A stretch of DNA of 64,000 nt from a virus: the IMG/VR virus record IMGVR_UViG_3300044655_001100, positions 1 through 64,000 of that record; one strand, given 5' to 3'. This document shows, in pieces, positions 47,916 to 59,691 of the stretch (position 1 is its first letter; the number at the start of each line of letters is the position of its first letter). A model generated the notes under the pieces. It searched no databases. It saw only the letters and a list, made by a program, of their open reading frames with translations, and had not been told where the DNA came from. A program made the position numbers and the translations under genes.

Positions 47916-47934
47916 GTGTATAATTAGGTGTCAA
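47906..47934 (-). promoter_or_regulatory. Sigma70-like leftward promoter
   Basis: On the minus strand TTGACA (47934-47929), 17 bases, TAATCA (47911-47906). The -35 is a perfect consensus; the -10 is weak, which suits a regulated promoter. It lies within the end of the methyltransferase gene and drives the small gene at 47598 plus the ERF/exonuclease genes. Confidence 0.5.
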
Positions 47935-48712
47935 GGCGTTTTGTATAATATTCTTCGTGCTTCTTGATAGCCAACCCAATTATCTCTGGTATCTGAGGAA
48001 CTACAGCATTTCCTAGGGCTCTAGTTCTGTCCATCCGGTTGGAAACCCCATGAGCCACTCGATGAATGGCGGGTTCACATGGCCATCCCCCTTTTTCCAT
48101 CCTACGGATAACGCTACTTGTGTACCTAGATGAGAAGACTTTTCTATCGGTCTGAGATCCCCCCGATGATTCTGATTCCGGCATGTCATCCCCATCACCG
48201 AATCCGATGCCTTGGGGGTAGGCCACAATCCAGACTCTCTCACGGATGTGCGGTGCGCCAATGCTGGCCGCCGATATGCTTTCCCATTCTGCGTCATACC
48301 CGATCTCGGCCAAATCTCCGAGAACGGTGTCCATTCCTCTAGCAAGCAACCCTGGGACGTTTTCCACGATGACGTATCTGGGTCGTATTTCGCTAATAAG
48401 TCTGGCGAATTCTGACCATAATCCGCTGCGCTTTCCTTCAATCCCATTTTTTGCGCCAGCTGTGCTAACGTCCTGGCACGGGAACCCCCCACAGATTGCC
48501 TCAACGGTGATTCCGTCTCTTCTAAGTTGCTCTCCTGAAATAGTGGTAACGTCTTCATAAAGCGGAACCTCTGGCCAATGCTTGGATAAAACTTTTTTAC
48601 AAAACGGATCTATTTCACAAAAGGCTACAGTCTGAAAAGCTTGGGACCTTTCGAGCCCCAAGCTAAACCCACCAATGCCAGAAAATAAATCAAGCAGTTT
48701 TATAGGAGCCAT
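47924..48712 (-). CDS. DNA C5-cytosine methyltransferase
   Basis: 262 residues from the ATG that overlaps the ATPase stop (TGATG). Motif I LLDLFSGIGGFSLGLE, motif IV GGFPCQDVSTAG with the catalytic Cys, motif VI VIVENVPGL, motif VIII GAPHIRERVWIVA, motif X ALGNAVVPQI. The target-recognition part between VIII and X is short. No cognate restriction enzyme is adjacent; instead it is coupled to a GHKL ATPase. It may protect phage DNA from host restriction or act with the ATPase. A second long frame (48013-48558) overlaps it. Confidence 0.9.
   Translation of the reverse strand: MAPIKLLDLFSGIGGFSLGLERSQAFQTVAFCEIDPFCKKVLSKHWPEVPLYEDVTTISGEQLRRDGITVEAICGGFPCQDVSTAGAKNGIEGKRSGLWSEFARLISEIRPRYVIVENVPGLLARGMDTVLGDLAEIGYDAEWESISAASIGAPHIRERVWIVAYPQGIGFGDGDDMPESESSGGSQTDRKVFSSRYTSSVIRRMEKGGWPCEPAIHRVAHGVSNRMDRTRALGNAVVPQIPEIIGLAIKKHEEYYTKRLDT
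48013..48558 (-). CDS. Overlapping +1-frame ORF inside C5-methyltransferase gene (WPTP/WLMGFP family)
   Basis: 181 residues lying wholly inside the methyltransferase gene, in the +1 frame. Motifs: LLAKYDPDTSSWKTSQGCL, FSEIWPRSGMTQNGKAYRR, GLWPTPKASDS and NPPFIEWLMGFPTGWTELE at the end. The same motifs occur in the +1-frame ORF inside the other methyltransferase (58449-59606). I recall such WPTP..D/WLMGFP sequences as separately annotated phage proteins. An AGAGG lies about 10 bases before its ATG. Whether it is translated is unknown; constraint from the methyltransferase frame is the alternative. Confidence 0.4.
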   Translation of the reverse strand: MKTLPLFQESNLEETESPLRQSVGGSRARTLAQLAQKMGLKESAADYGQNSPDLLAKYDPDTSSWKTSQGCLLEEWTPFSEIWPRSGMTQNGKAYRRPALAHRTSVRESGLWPTPKASDSVMGMTCRNQNHRGDLRPIEKSSHLGTQVALSVGWKKGDGHVNPPFIEWLMGFPTGWTELEP

Positions 48713-50583
48713 CAAGATGCCTGTTTCAGTGATGTCACATTGTAGCGCGACATTTTTAACATGGCATCGCTCATCATATCTTCCCAAAATCCTGCCGATA
48801 CGGACAAACTTTCTGGAGAATACCCTTTTTCAATCGAAGAGCTAGACCAAATACCTTCTATTTCATTGCTTCGTGCAGTTATCCACGCACTACCAACTAA
48901 GTATTCAAATTGCTCTTTAATTTTTTCTCTTGCTGCTTCTCTCATTTCAGCTTGATCTGGGTATCCAGGGTAATGATTGCATAACGCTTCCCATGCATCA
49001 TTAAACCATTTGTGATTTAGATTAAGATATAGCGTATTGTTTCCATCATAAGACGCAAACATACCGGCGCCAATTTTTGTTAGAATATCTTCCTCATCAT
49101 CAAGCCATTGTGGGTCTGGCATAATGTAAAGATTTTCATCATATTTTATTTTACGTTGTCCTCTTTTAGCTATATTAATACGAATAGTATCGTTGTTTGG
49201 TGGGTTAGGGTTTGGTGGAGTTGGAGGTCTTGGTTTCCACGGCCTATGAATTCTAACACGTTCTGCGGTTTCATCATCGGAAGCTTCTTCTCCTTCCTTA
49301 GAAACTTGAGGGGTTGTTTTCTTTAATTTCAATCTGTCCAGCTTTTCCTGCAGGCGTTTTTTGGATTTCTCACTGGAAGATATGCTTTTGTCGTATTCCT
49401 TAATTTTATCCAATACCCATTGCGGTCTGTATTCCCACATAATCTCACTAAAATCTTCAAGCTTTACCTCCTCGTCTGGTTTATCCGTATAGGATAGAAA
49501 TGAACGGTCGCTGCTTGAAGCAATATTAAGATAATTATCCGGCAACTCTACGATAACTGATATAAATCTCCAACCAAAACGAATCCCTAACTTATGGGCG
49601 CAATCAGACCATTTCTGTTTTGTAGTATTTGAGCGTAAGTCATAAAATTCGTTTTTATAAACAATGCCTCCACGACTGCCAAATGAAAACATATTGCCGT
49701 CTTCTGCCCTTGTTCCAGATCTATTGGGTGATTTTGGATCATGGAAAAAATGAATTTTAATTCCATCTTGGCATCTAACAATATCGTGTTTATCCCACCA
49801 TGCAGATCCATCCTGCTTAATTCTATTATCCATAGCGGTCATAGTCCAGAATTGACGTGGACTCATCTCATCTGGTCTACTATGAGTTCCTTGGTGAAAA
49901 CGTATTTCCGCATTCTCTGGTATTCTAAAATAACGATTGAATAAATATAGGCCAAGCCAAAGCTGATCTTCTTTTACTTTTGGATCATAGGGATAAAAAC
50001 AAGTATTTTGATTATACTCGTTACCAAATAGCGTCACTTCCGTCCATTCATCTTCTGTAGAATAGCGACCTTCTTGAGCAACGATATCAGTAACATCATC
50101 AATTGTATCAGTTGTTCCATCTTCATATTGGTATTTCATTCTTCCATATGTTTTACCGTCATCTGAAAGCTTTAATATTGTTTCATGTACAGAACCTTGT
50201 CGGCATGATCGTATTCTAAGACCTTTTTTATTTGATTTAAGAGAGGCTATCTTGGCGCCAATTCCATAATTATCCGTGAGAGATCTAATTTTATTTAACA
50301 CTACTGAAAGATCTGACATTAAATGTAGATCTTTTCGGCTCATGCCTGGCCCATTATTCCAGATGGAAAGTTTAGGGGCATCCCCTAATTCTGGAATAAA
50401 TGTAGGATAAAATCTTATAAATCCTTTTCCAGAAACGTCTTGAGTAGAAGCCTCAATTGCGTTTTGAGTTAACTCTCGCATCATCATACCGGACGGGCAT
50501 TTTTCAATGTCGCGATAAATGGAAAATTCTTCGCCACCATCAGAAGCGTATTTTAGTGGATCAACATCATTGTATGATGCCAT
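48712..50583 (-). CDS. GHKL (MORC/Hsp90-like) ATPase
   Basis: 623 residues. N-terminal ATP-binding motifs: N-box RELTQNAIEAS (E37, N41), G1 box IWNNGPGMS (74-82; the usual Asp is Asn76) and G2 box DNYGIGAK (104-111). The middle contains a transducer-like region, then a coiled coil (about 405-430), a proline-rich linker (HRPWKPRPPTPPNPNPP) and a C-terminal domain with DPQWLDDEEDILTKI and EQFEYLVGSAWIT. MutL/MORC-type GHKL ATPases were described as partners in restriction-modification loci (Iyer, Abhiman and Aravind 2008). It is coupled by TGATG to a C5-methyltransferase. Role inferred: DNA-level silencing, defence or counter-defence. Confidence 0.7.
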   Translation of the reverse strand: MASYNDVDPLKYASDGGEEFSIYRDIEKCPSGMMMRELTQNAIEASTQDVSGKGFIRFYPTFIPELGDAPKLSIWNNGPGMSRKDLHLMSDLSVVLNKIRSLTDNYGIGAKIASLKSNKKGLRIRSCRQGSVHETILKLSDDGKTYGRMKYQYEDGTTDTIDDVTDIVAQEGRYSTEDEWTEVTLFGNEYNQNTCFYPYDPKVKEDQLWLGLYLFNRYFRIPENAEIRFHQGTHSRPDEMSPRQFWTMTAMDNRIKQDGSAWWDKHDIVRCQDGIKIHFFHDPKSPNRSGTRAEDGNMFSFGSRGGIVYKNEFYDLRSNTTKQKWSDCAHKLGIRFGWRFISVIVELPDNYLNIASSSDRSFLSYTDKPDEEVKLEDFSEIMWEYRPQWVLDKIKEYDKSISSSEKSKKRLQEKLDRLKLKKTTPQVSKEGEEASDDETAERVRIHRPWKPRPPTPPNPNPPNNDTIRINIAKRGQRKIKYDENLYIMPDPQWLDDEEDILTKIGAGMFASYDGNNTLYLNLNHKWFNDAWEALCNHYPGYPDQAEMREAAREKIKEQFEYLVGSAWITARSNEIEGIWSSSSIEKGYSPESLSVSAGFWEDMMSDAMLKMSRYNVTSLKQAS

Positions 50584-50584
50584 T

Positions 50585-50743
50585 TTATATTCCTTTTTTT
50601 TGATTGGCTTGAAAATAAACGGGTTGTGATATTTCTTGAGAAATCATTGCACCAACCCCGTAATTTTGTTTTTTATTTAATTTACCCAACCAACTAATTG
50701 GGTCGTACATCAGTTTTCTTTTTTTGTTCTTTGAACAATTCAC
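50585..50743 (-). CDS. Small basic protein upstream of GHKL ATPase
   Basis: 52 residues from GTG 50743, which has AAAAGGGGG 5-6 bases upstream. The in-frame ATG at 50791 lies inside the predicted promoter and cannot be used from it. NCSKNKKRKLMYDPISWLGK then KKQNYGVGAMISQEISQPVY. It ends 1 base before the ATPase ATG and contains its ribosome-binding site (AAGGA), so translation is probably coupled. No family recognised. Confidence 0.4.
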   Translation of the reverse strand: MNCSKNKKRKLMYDPISWLGKLNKKQNYGVGAMISQEISQPVYFQANQKKGI

Positions 50744-50775
50744 ATCAACCCCCTTTTGTAGACGAACTTCATGCC

Positions 50776-50804
50776 GATATACGATATGCATAGATTAGCG
50801 TCAA
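50776..50804 (-). promoter_or_regulatory. Sigma70-like promoter for ATPase/methyltransferase operon
   Basis: On the minus strand TTGACG (50804-50799), 17 bases, TATATC (50781-50776). It would start transcription near 50769, upstream of the small gene, the GHKL ATPase and the methyltransferase. Confidence 0.5.
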
Positions 50805-52363: not shown

Positions 52364-53722
52364 TTAAAATCCATCCTCATCCTCATCATCCCAAAAATTA
52401 TCTGATTTAGTTTCTTTCAGGAATGATGGGATGTTTTCCTCTGGTTCATTTGTATCAGTTTCTGATACATCATTAGTTTCTGGCGCCTCTAAACCCCATG
52501 CTTCCCAGCCATCTCTTGCTCTTCTGGCATTCAATTCAATTTTGGGAAGGCTAGGAAAATAAGCTTCAATCATCCGGTAAATGCTGTCTGGCTTTACGCT
52601 GTGTTCCTGTACAGGATCGCTGAACACAGACGGGAATTGTGAACCAGGGGCTGGAGAAGGAATCACTCCCTTTACGCCAACCAATAAAATCTCATGCTGG
52701 TTTCTAAACCAGTAACCAGTTCCCATGCGATCTTTAACCCAGACTGCTTGAGACTTGTACGTGAAGCCCCATGATTCCATCACCCGCAAAGCATCGGGAA
52801 GCATTGGAACTGTAGCCCAGAGAAACAAAACAGAATTCCTATCTGCAATATCTCCTATTGGGAGATTGCAAATATCATCTGTTGTTTGACATGGATAATG
52901 ATTATCAGCGGATCGATCCATTCCGTTATCGCTGAAGGTTTTAAATTTCCACGGTGGATCAGCCAAAATGATTCCAAACTTGGCATCCGGTAGGGATATT
53001 TGTTTCTGACCTAGGACACGTTCCTTCTCGGCTCGTTCCTGCTTTTTTACCTCAGCCCTTGCCGATACCTTCTCTCCTCCTCTGGCCCTTTCAATCAGAG
53101 CGGCCTGTACATCCTCAGCCAGCTTCGCCAGTGCGTCTAATTCAACGCCAGCATCCAATGAGGTGCCTACGAGCTCAGCGATATCCTTGATGCTTTTAAC
53201 CCGCTTTGCGTCCCGCTCTACTGCTGCAGAGGATCGATTGGTGTCCCTAGCCACGGCTTGGGCTGAGTTGGAATGTTTGGTCTCAGATAGTTTCCCCTCA
53301 AATTGAGAGGAAATTCCCTCGTCTGATTCGTCCCTTGGACCAGTTTTGAGTCGGTATTTTATTTCTGCGATCTCTTTGAGTCGCGCAAAGTGCATAGATT
53401 GTTGGGCTGCAGTCAGTTCGTGCCGAATCAAATTTTCGCAAAGTTCAATTTGCTCTGCGTCTAGGGCATCTATTCCCTCTAAAACAGTGGCTTGGATATT
53501 TTCCCATTTAAGCCTTTTGGCTGCTTCCAGACGATGGCGCCCAGCAATCAGAACATATCCGTTTTCTTCTGTACGCCGTACGCAGATGGGATTTATCAGA
53601 CCAATATCACCCATAGATGCAGCGAGTCTTTCAACAAGGTCTGGTCTTTTGGGAATATGCCGATCATCAGAAATATGAATTAAAACAACACCAATATTCT
53701 CAACATTATGTTGATTTGTCAT
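52364..53722 (-). CDS. ParB-like domain fused to MT-A70 adenine methyltransferase
   Basis: 452 residues. An N-terminal ParB/Srx-type domain (about 10-120) has INPICVRR and VLIAGRHRLEAAKRL. A helical linker follows. The C-terminal MT-A70 domain has FGIILADPPWKFKTFS (DPPW at 255-258) then VLFLWATVPMLPDALRVMES, VWVKDRMGTGYWFRNQHEIL and KIELNARRARDGWEAWG. It methylates adenine N6. It is the only leftward gene in this rightward segment. Could protect phage DNA or alter GcrA/CcrM-like control. The acidic tail (NFWDDEDEDGF) is notable. Confidence 0.9.
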   Translation of the reverse strand: MTNQHNVENIGVVLIHISDDRHIPKRPDLVERLAASMGDIGLINPICVRRTEENGYVLIAGRHRLEAAKRLKWENIQATVLEGIDALDAEQIELCENLIRHELTAAQQSMHFARLKEIAEIKYRLKTGPRDESDEGISSQFEGKLSETKHSNSAQAVARDTNRSSAAVERDAKRVKSIKDIAELVGTSLDAGVELDALAKLAEDVQAALIERARGGEKVSARAEVKKQERAEKERVLGQKQISLPDAKFGIILADPPWKFKTFSDNGMDRSADNHYPCQTTDDICNLPIGDIADRNSVLFLWATVPMLPDALRVMESWGFTYKSQAVWVKDRMGTGYWFRNQHEILLVGVKGVIPSPAPGSQFPSVFSDPVQEHSVKPDSIYRMIEAYFPSLPKIELNARRARDGWEAWGLEAPETNDVSETDTNEPEENIPSFLKETKSDNFWDDEDEDGF

Positions 53723-58388: not shown

Positions 58389-59691
58389 ACATAATTGCTT
58401 TGATCACCTCTGCCGCCAATTGCGGTACGATAGCATTGCCTAGGGCTTTTAGCTTTGCGGCTCTTGCTTCTGCTTTCGTGATGAGGAGCGGGATGGAGGG
58501 GCGCAATCCATCCATTCCTTCGGGAACCCCATGAGCCAAGCCACAAAGTCCGGATTGAGGGAACCACGGGGCTCGTCTGGTTTTTCCGTCGGCTCCTGTG
58601 ATCCAGATTGAATCTCTCCAATATGAAGAGACGCTATTGTTGAAACAGTAGCTCCTCGGTTTTGTCCCAGCCAAGAGCTCCCCGCTTCTGCTATGCTCTG
58701 AGCATTCGATGGGCCTTGATGGTTCTCGTTCGCTCTTGGTGTCGGCCAGGGAGCCGTATGTTGGTAGATCTCCTCTGATAGATATCCTGTCGTCCTGCCT
58801 GTCGCTGCTCTGGACGGACGTAATCCCTTCCGGTCCGCTGCGTCCGATGTTGTTGGTGTCGGCCATGTCGCTGCAGTCAGTAGCGCTGCTTCCGATAGAT
58901 TCTTCTGTCTGCCCTGATCCCATCGTTTCAGAGCTTTCTGTGGATCGCTGTATTCCCCGCCGCCCTTCTCTCTGCAATTCGGTGTCGGCCATGTCGAATG
59001 AATTGCTACTTGCTGGCCCAGTGTCGCTGTTTCCGGCCTCAACATTCGACTGGGAGGTATTGACGATCCGTCTTTCCAATCCCTCGCTCTGGGCGTTGTC
59101 CAGGTTCCTGCCTGAAAGCTCAAAGCCGATCCCCCTTGAGCATATTTCTTTTTTCTCATTCCCTTGTCGTCTGCGCATGGTGTTGTCCATGCTAACCCAA
59201 TAGAGTCTCTCTCTGATGTGAGGCGCATTGACCGAACATGCGCTAAGATTAAACGCTTGGCAGGAGTAGTCTTGACTTTCCAGATCATCGAAAACTCCAT
59301 CGAGCCAATTGAGCCCAGCTGCGCCACCAACTTGCTCTCCGATGGCGACAGGCGGTCTACATGCACTGATGAGTCTATAAAGGTGAGGCCAAAGATGCCG
59401 CTCATCGGCTTCCCCTTTCCCTTTCCCTGCAACGGAGAAAGGCTGACAGGGGCAGCTTCCTGACCAGATTTCCCGGTCCGATGGGAATCCTGCGAGTTTA
59501 AGGGCAAGTGGAAAGCCGGCGATTCCACAGAAGAAATGGGCTTGGACAAATCCTCTGACATCATCAGGCTGAATAAGCTGAATTGGTCGGCTGTCGATTT
59601 CACCATCTGGTATTAACCCCTTTTTAATAAGATTTTTTATCCATTCTATGCAGTATGGTTCAATCTCATTATAAAAATTCCATTTTTTCAT
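58387..59691 (-). CDS. DNA C5-cytosine methyltransferase, second copy
   Basis: 434 residues. Unusual N-terminus (WNFYNEIEPYCIEWIKNLIK then RPIQLIQPDDVRGF), then motif I FFCGIAGFPLAL, motif IV GSCPCQPFSVAG with the catalytic Cys, a motif VI variant IGEQVGGAAG, motif VIII NAPHIRERLYWVS and motif X ALGNAIVPQL. The region between VIII and X holds three MADT/LADT-type repeats. Diverged from the copy at 47924. No restriction partner is adjacent. It likely protects phage DNA. A very long +1-frame ORF (58449-59606) covers most of it. Confidence 0.9.
   Translation of the reverse strand: MKKWNFYNEIEPYCIEWIKNLIKKGLIPDGEIDSRPIQLIQPDDVRGFVQAHFFCGIAGFPLALKLAGFPSDREIWSGSCPCQPFSVAGKGKGEADERHLWPHLYRLISACRPPVAIGEQVGGAAGLNWLDGVFDDLESQDYSCQAFNLSACSVNAPHIRERLYWVSMDNTMRRRQGNEKKEICSRGIGFELSGRNLDNAQSEGLERRIVNTSQSNVEAGNSDTGPASSNSFDMADTELQREGRRGIQRSTESSETMGSGQTEESIGSSATDCSDMADTNNIGRSGPEGITSVQSSDRQDDRISIRGDLPTYGSLADTKSEREPSRPIECSEHSRSGELLAGTKPRSYCFNNSVSSYWRDSIWITGADGKTRRAPWFPQSGLCGLAHGVPEGMDGLRPSIPLLITKAEARAAKLKALGNAIVPQLAAEVIKAIM
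58449..59606 (-). CDS. Overlapping +1-frame ORF inside second methyltransferase gene (WPTP/WLMGFP family)
   Basis: 385 residues, entirely inside the methyltransferase gene in the +1 frame. Repeated motif W(P/T)TPxAxD: LAWTTPCADDKG, GTWTTPRARDWKDG, STWPTPNCREKGG, ATWPTPTTSDAADRKG, APWPTPRANENHQG, ending NPDFVAWLMGFPKEWMDCAP. The WPTP repeats correspond to the MADT/LADT repeats of the host frame. AAGGGG lies about 11 bases before the ATG. Shares motifs with 48013-48558. An unbroken 385-codon second frame with conserved motifs argues for a genuine overlapping gene, but expression is untested. Confidence 0.45.
   Translation of the reverse strand: MVKSTADQFSLFSLMMSEDLSKPISSVESPAFHLPLNSQDSHRTGKSGQEAAPVSLSPLQGKGKGKPMSGIFGLTFIDSSVHVDRLSPSESKLVAQLGSIGSMEFSMIWKVKTTPAKRLILAHVRSMRLTSERDSIGLAWTTPCADDKGMRKKKYAQGGSALSFQAGTWTTPRARDWKDGSSIPPSRMLRPETATLGQQVAIHSTWPTPNCREKGGGEYSDPQKALKRWDQGRQKNLSEAALLTAATWPTPTTSDAADRKGLRPSRAATGRTTGYLSEEIYQHTAPWPTPRANENHQGPSNAQSIAEAGSSWLGQNRGATVSTIASLHIGEIQSGSQEPTEKPDEPRGSLNPDFVAWLMGFPKEWMDCAPPSRSSSRKQKQEPQS

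Follow-up and report, generated by a model that had tools for sequence, protein, structure and literature searches.

The 64,000-nucleotide (nt) stretch of viral DNA analyzed here, henceforth termed the window, belongs to an IMG/VR virus record of 96,186 bases. On its minus strand, it carries the gene of a GHKL ATPase directly followed by that of a C5-cytosine methyltransferase (MTase), and the MTase gene in turn contains a second open reading frame (ORF) in the +1 frame (Table 1). An 89-amino-acid (aa) ORF and genes for a YqaJ exonuclease and an Erf annealing protein (Pfam) lie 3' of the MTase on the same strand; the YqaJ and Erf genes therefore place the ATPase-MTase pair in the genome's recombination region. 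An initial annotation of this DNA identified the ATPase from a 623-residue ORF with the boxes RELTQNAIEAS, NNGPGMS and DNYGIGAK and noted a TGATG at which its stop overlaps the MTase start, both of which are present in the sequence. The ORF in the +1 frame, as well as a second MTase of the same phage with the same arrangement, went unmentioned. Here we show computationally that many phages maintain the +1 frame free of stops and conserved at the protein level, and that they do so only inside the borders of the ORF.

An overlapping +1 frame in the methyltransferase gene

The MTase had initially been described as complete. A C5-MTase does lie next to the ATPase, with a match of the frame-0 ORF to Pfam DNA_methylase (9.3e-46), but the description as a complete single chain did not hold: M.HhaI is matched only over residues 4–169, which comprise motifs I–VIII. 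Likeness to M.HhaI, M.HaeIII and Dnmt enzymes ends at about residue 170, at motif VIII, and the profile alignment of the frame-0 chain to single-chain MTases stops at column 182. Behind motif VIII, the chain continues with a short variable stretch and, near its end, a motif X-like ALGNAVVPQ. Neither the recognition domain nor a recognizable motif IX of a single-chain C5-MTase was found in it, the matches ending at about residues 170–180. Judged by its motifs, the frame-0 chain does not make up a whole MTase by itself.

Openness of the +1 frame was assessed in 81 MTase genes, i.e., 80 IMG/VR relatives and that of the window, of which 74 are non-redundant. As a null model, synonymous codons were shuffled within each gene, which keeps the protein and the codon usage. 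The longest stop-free run had a median of 228 codons in the +1 frame and 54 in the +2 frame of the 81 MTases; after synonymous shuffling, the +1 run averaged about 107 codons. Compared to shuffled genes, the +1 frame was more open at p<0.01 in 54 of the 74 non-redundant genes, the +2 frame in none (0/74). Two of 110 other phage genes used as a control reached p<0.01 in the +1 frame, and one of these two is C5-MTase-like by its N-terminus.

The +1 frame is also conserved as a protein. In a codon alignment, its amino-acid and third-position conservation exceeded the shuffle null throughout MTase codons 51–235, the span of the +1 ORF. Conservation was 0.52 compared to a null of 0.24 over codons 206–235, and it remained above the null over codons 171–205, where frame 0 is hardly conserved. 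Over codons 1–50 and 236–262, +1 conservation was near the null, though frame 0 is well conserved there. Shared ancestry does not explain the +1 signal, because these flanks, which act as an internal control, have saturated synonymous sites.

Translation signals point in the same direction. A Shine-Dalgarno (SD)-like motif occurs at the first start after the delimiting +1 stop in 24 of 35 genes, compared to 40 of 166 starts further on (Fisher p 1e-6) and 15% of random positions. A second chain could arise by internal initiation or as a programmed frameshift fusion; internal initiation appears more likely, because the +1 ORF has its own starts with SD-like sites. In a second clade of MTases (MNELALFAGAGGG...), the +1 ORF spans the whole MTase gene, beginning after a stop at an ATG located 4 nt inside the MTase start (MSWLFSQALVAEYS...). 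A wider set that includes this clade yielded p<0.01 for the +1 frame in 36 of 47 genes.

The second, divergent MTase of the window repeats the overlapping-frame arrangement within one phage. Its +1 stop-free run extends over 387 codons, a length reached in 0 of 5000 synonymous shuffles, and the C-terminal end of its +1 ORF reads LNPDFVAWLMGFPKEW. Both MTases of the window match phrog_363 with their frame-0 chains and phrog_1008 with their +1 ORFs; each of these two families is labelled “DNA methyltransferase”. phrog_1008 corresponds to the overlapping +1 family and bears the methyltransferase label although its matches in the window have no catalytic motifs.

A search with the +1 protein retrieved 55 viral loci, all of which (55/55) have a same-strand MTase in the frame one base behind; at three of them, the matched stretches adjoin instead of overlapping. 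In INPHARED, 192 phage records match the +1 protein, with hosts including Mycobacterium, Streptomyces, Vibrio, Synechococcus and Stenotrophomonas. None of the eight phage records whose annotation we read has both frames annotated, and for Pseudomonas phage phPA-G the annotation lists the +1 frame, as a hypothetical gene. In Mycobacterium phage Seabastian (L219, 505–1264), the frame-0 MTase is annotated as two pieces, gp75 and gp76, owing to a frame change relative to phage SG4.

Table 1. Features of the window, and ATPase relatives fused to or followed by TPR-repeat proteins at other loci (locus handle before the position; “with TPR”).
Feature	Position	Strand	Basis
C5-cytosine MTase, catalytic (alpha-like) chain, 262 aa counted from ATG	47924..48712	-	Pfam, M.HhaI match
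Overlapping ORF, +1 frame, 181 aa, beta-like subunit candidate, ending ...HVNPPFIEWLMGFPTGWTELEP (motif IX-like)	48013..48558	-	phrog_1008 E 2.8e-25
SD-like AGAGG, 9 nt 5' of the ATG (48558) of the overlapping ORF	48568..48572	-	sequence; family-wide enrichment
TGATG, stop of ATPase / start of MTase; one base common to both ORFs	48710..48714	-	sequence
GHKL + S5-like ATPase, 623 aa	48712..50583	-	ORF, alignment, AlphaFold2, Foldseek
68-codon ORF, the “small basic protein” of the initial annotation; probably not a gene	50585..50791	-	comparison with L001 and other loci
Promoter-like TTGACG-17-TATATC	50776..50804	-	sequence; TTGACG and spacing kept in L001
Second C5-MTase, 434 aa, 37% identity with the first over 111 aa	58387..59691	-	Pfam 7.6e-18
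+1-frame ORF overlapping the second MTase, 385 aa, ...GSLNPDFVAWLMGFPKEWMDC	58449..59606	-	phrog_1008 E 5.7e-29
ATPase relative with TPR	L034 6001-10368
ATPase relative with TPR	L039 5614-9357
ATPase relative with TPR	L062 3516-6776
ATPase relative with TPR	L003 9819-12071

A putative second methyltransferase chain

The C-terminus of the +1 protein, LNPxWVEWLMGFPxGWT, resembles motif IX by eye (cf. LTPRECxRLQGFPDxx in the single-chain MTases L226–L230), and this segment is placed just before motif X of frame 0. We consider it probable that the operon comprises two modules, an independent ATPase and a two-polypeptide C5-MTase that originates from overlapping frames in the manner of M.EcoHK31I. 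The operon of this double-stranded DNA phage would accordingly hold two separate accessory modules. A catalytic chain with motifs I–VIII and X would be read in frame 0 from position 48712, and translation starting internally at position 48558 would give a second chain in the +1 frame. We infer that this second chain is translated, assembles with the first and acts as motif IX and recognition part: it would contribute the segment resembling motif IX and, probably, some of the target recognition. Joined as in the split enzyme M.EcoHK31I, both chains would form an active MTase that protects phage DNA from restriction by methylating it.

An arrangement of two polypeptides with motif IX provided in trans already has precedent. 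For M.EcoHK31I, the beta gene is reported to be nested in a different frame of the alpha gene. This C5-MTase (YGGCCR) consists of a large polypeptide with motifs I–VIII and X and a small one with motif IX (PMC3404938), a split that resembles the one proposed for the window MTase. The latter differs in being a phage orphan with no restriction enzyme nearby, and the two are likened by the described layout. Two subunits also form one C5-MTase in M.AquI, whose small chain contains the distal recognition region and motifs IX–X (PMC3404938), whereas the window MTase keeps motif X in the catalytic chain and has its second ORF inside the catalytic gene. The ShiLan domain, an out-of-frame HNH in a phage methylase (PMC11855218), is likewise an additional ORF read in a different frame of a gene for a phage DNA methylase; it is, however, a mobile insertion with an HNH nuclease, whereas the +1 ORF of the window overlaps the conserved MTase core and has no HNH match.

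Several observations weigh against the assignment as a second MTase chain. A profile of the +1 protein compared to single-chain MTases aligns at motif IX without reaching significance (P 0.06), the joined +1 and frame-0 pieces gave no Pfam match, and the AlphaFold model of the +1 protein was poor (predicted local distance difference test (pLDDT) 60), too poor for a structure search. The recognition domain of M.EcoHK31I has been assigned to the larger chain (PMC3404938). Moreover, an unusually open +1 frame was also seen in single-chain MTase controls: where their catalytic part was inspected, three of five reached p<0.01 and a fourth p=0.018. Openness alone is therefore not specific to the split type, and the open +1 frame of single-chain MTases is perhaps a trace of shared history. 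The controls with an open +1 frame include L226, L227 and L228, ordinary single-chain C5-MTase genes on Firmicutes plasmids.

Rather than a motif IX subunit, the +1 ORF could encode a small protein of independent function, e.g., an MTase regulator or an anti-restriction factor. Such a protein would be consistent with the strong protein-level conservation, the SD-like starts, the clade in which the +1 ORF is as long as the MTase gene and the lack of a significant profile match to MTase domains. We nevertheless regard it as unlikely: the +1 ORF was never encountered without the MTase among the 55 loci, its conserved C-terminus is motif IX-like and occupies the expected place of motif IX, and the frame-0 chain has no recognizable motif IX. 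Similarly doubtful is the wider proposition that the +1 gene, found in phages of many host phyla, encodes a product with a function of its own beyond motif IX and that the two genes are among the most widespread overlapping pairs of phages, hidden by annotation.

A reading without any second protein, in which the open +1 frame arises as a side effect of base composition or conserved amino acids in frame 0, could draw on the open +1 frame of the single-chain controls and on several high-GC genes that individually lack significance, but it is very improbable and largely refuted already by the border-limited conservation, which extends to codons 171–205; the null keeps both protein and codon usage, unrelated genes behave as expected (2/110), and SD-like motifs are enriched at starts.

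Literature searched mostly without subscription papers or REBASE yielded no published description of the overlapping +1 frame apart from the ShiLan insertion and the M.EcoHK31I precedent. What appears to be new is the recognition of a conserved, phage-wide dual-coding arrangement with its own family, although this negative literature result is no proof of novelty. If the proposed two-chain MTase is correct, many phage “DNA methyltransferases”, from mycobacteriophages to those of Salmonella, Synechococcus, Vibrio, Pseudomonas and other phages, are half annotated, and cloning a single ORF, codon optimization or specificity calls from one chain would result in dead or misread enzymes. The same genes would offer a large natural collection of dual-coding genes in which the evolution of two proteins on one DNA stretch could be studied.

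The GHKL ATPase and its family

In the GHKL superfamily, the N-box Glu is catalytic, the N-box Asn binds Mg and the G1 Asp contacts adenine. The window ATPase carries R36, E37, N41 and E44 in its N box, W75-N76-x-G-x-G as G1 and N105-x-G-x-G-A-K as G2; we take E37 to be the catalytic Glu, N41 the Mg-binding Asn and position 76 the place of the adenine-binding Asp. An alignment of 45 family members revealed R36, E37, N41, E44, G78, G80, N105, G107, G109, A110 and K111 as invariant. The initial annotation had pointed to Asn in place of the G1 Asp as a change that weakens ATP binding in Hsp90-type enzymes. The Asn is present, but it does not represent a local weakening, since position 76 is Asn in 44 of the 45 members and Asp in one, and it is therefore a family trait, not decay.

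Sequence searches alone placed this protein only loosely. Its match to Pfam HATPase_c (0.0014) lies under the family cut-off, a PDB sequence search with the ATPase alone returned no match, and the family profile gave only weak matches to PDB sequences (HtpG, MORC3 and TRAP1). The AlphaFold2 model (pLDDT 82.5) was more informative: Foldseek retrieved the ATPase module of SMCHD1 (2e-11), Hsp90, MORC2/3/4 and GyrB, which bears out the previously proposed GHKL fold and Hsp90/MORC likeness. As modelled, the ATPase is a Bergerat GHKL fold plus an S5-type transducer, with a separate C-terminal domain at about residues 490–612 beyond a disordered linker. Among viral proteins, the structural matches include RIIA, a phage protein that is alike in fold only; the ATPase has no sequence match to it, and the ATPase family sits mostly on bacterial chromosomes.

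The fold is shared with MORC/paraMORC proteins and SMCHD1, from which the window ATPase differs by its G1 Asn in place of Asp, another C-terminal domain, the missing MORC motif and the lack of a restriction-modification (R-M) operon. The MORC-specific motif of the S5 domain, GhXhhpXXRhl (Iyer et al., PMC2292703), was found in 0 of the 45 family members. By this motif test, the ATPase is not a MORC, because the motif is absent from 45/45, and MORC membership was ruled out. A MORC-type neighbourhood with SFII helicase or R-M genes was not seen flanking the window ATPase, and the neighbours elsewhere are heterogeneous. Relatives of the ATPase occur on plasmids, at 66 genome loci (nearly all from Alphaproteobacteria) and at 8 viral loci. 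Going by these matches, the family is mostly alphaproteobacterial, mostly located on bacterial chromosomes and so far without a name; it marks a GHKL family in which Asn replaces the adenine-binding Asp. The ATPase would work independently of the MTase, most likely as an ATP-driven dimer like other GHKL engines, and this dimer would clamp or remodel a DNA-protein complex.

Neighbourhoods of the ATPase and the methyltransferase

The initial annotation had proposed that ATPase and MTase could form one functional system. Among 79 ATPase loci fetched, including the window's own (L006), this MTase is adjacent only in L006; the sole other match is a 30%-identical MTase in L067, at a distance of about 4 kb. 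Of the 8 other viral records that carry the ATPase, several of which are fragments, not one contains a PF00145 match. The ATPase was not found within about 3 kb at any of the 80 related MTase loci. In 30 whole MTase-bearing viral records, a profile search run without a parallel positive control detected no ATPase. In the 73%-identical phage relatives L007 and L008, the ATPase has HNH, Erf and YqaJ genes as neighbours but no MTase. The pair was thus found nowhere else in these sets and each gene was found alone, an outcome that the initial annotation had named as refuting its proposal, and a conserved ATPase-MTase pair was rejected on these neighbourhood counts. While co-translation of the two genes in this one phage is plausible, the comparison suggests that the MTase is an incidental neighbour of the ATPase and that the modules are separate.

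That the two proteins nonetheless constitute one system, a MORC-like engine with methylation acting in counter-defence, silencing or exclusion, is hardly credible: the TGATG overlap in a shared operon, a GHKL-S5 fold near MORC and SMCHD1, the co-occurrence of prokaryotic MORCs with DCM genes (PMC2292703) and some bacterial ATPase relatives that adjoin Gabija genes or DndB would fit, but no second pair was found in any of the locus or viral record sets, the MORC motif is missing from the family, and the gene pair has no helicase or endonuclease partner. Treating the modules as separate keeps a false “ATPase-methyltransferase system” off lists of defence or counter-defence candidates.

Upstream of the ATPase, the annotated promoter is supported in part. 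A TTGACG-17-TATATC is present, and the TTGACG with its 17-nt spacing also occurs upstream of the ATPase gene of the related contig L001 (97% identical); a strict consensus promoter scan did not report the site. The “small basic protein” annotated between promoter and ATPase did not stand up to comparison: it would start from an ATG within the promoter-like site, it lacks family matches in Pfam, PHROGs, NCBIfam and PADLOC, and its DNA is absent from L001, which has a 97% identical ATPase over the sequenced part and there shares only the promoter-like region with the window. Its product bears no relation to a small helical protein encoded upstream of other ATPase family members. This absence and lack of kinship ruled it out as a third operon member.

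The helical protein in question (65–95 aa, EGRTQSALDAIRKIGNLSN...KKIIKxLRDATxEIERKF) is encoded directly upstream of the ATPase at 27 of 76 loci, all in one cluster and including L002, L004, L005, L014, L015 and L070; this layout is frequent among the bacterial relatives. It is a better candidate partner of the ATPase than the MTase. Long TPR-repeat proteins are fused to or follow ATPase relatives, mainly at Acetobacteraceae loci (Table 1). The ATPase was rejected as a known defence system, with no match in PADLOC or NCBIfam and with a few defence genes (Gabija, DndB and AbiE) among the housekeeping genes that neighbour its bacterial relatives. A Gabija-like AAA and UvrD pair lies just 3' of the ATPase relative in L004 (9886–13027) and L005 (11321–14465), from Agrobacterium and Dinoroseobacter plasmids. 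DndB, a DNA-sulfur modification-associated protein (Pfam), is encoded directly 5' of the ATPase in L009 (1761–3215), and a protein of the same cluster takes this place in L018 (4382–5893). Elsewhere in the window, a ParB N-terminal domain is fused to an MT-A70-type adenine methyltransferase (52364–53722, minus strand), and this fusion is conserved in L001 (3028–4359).

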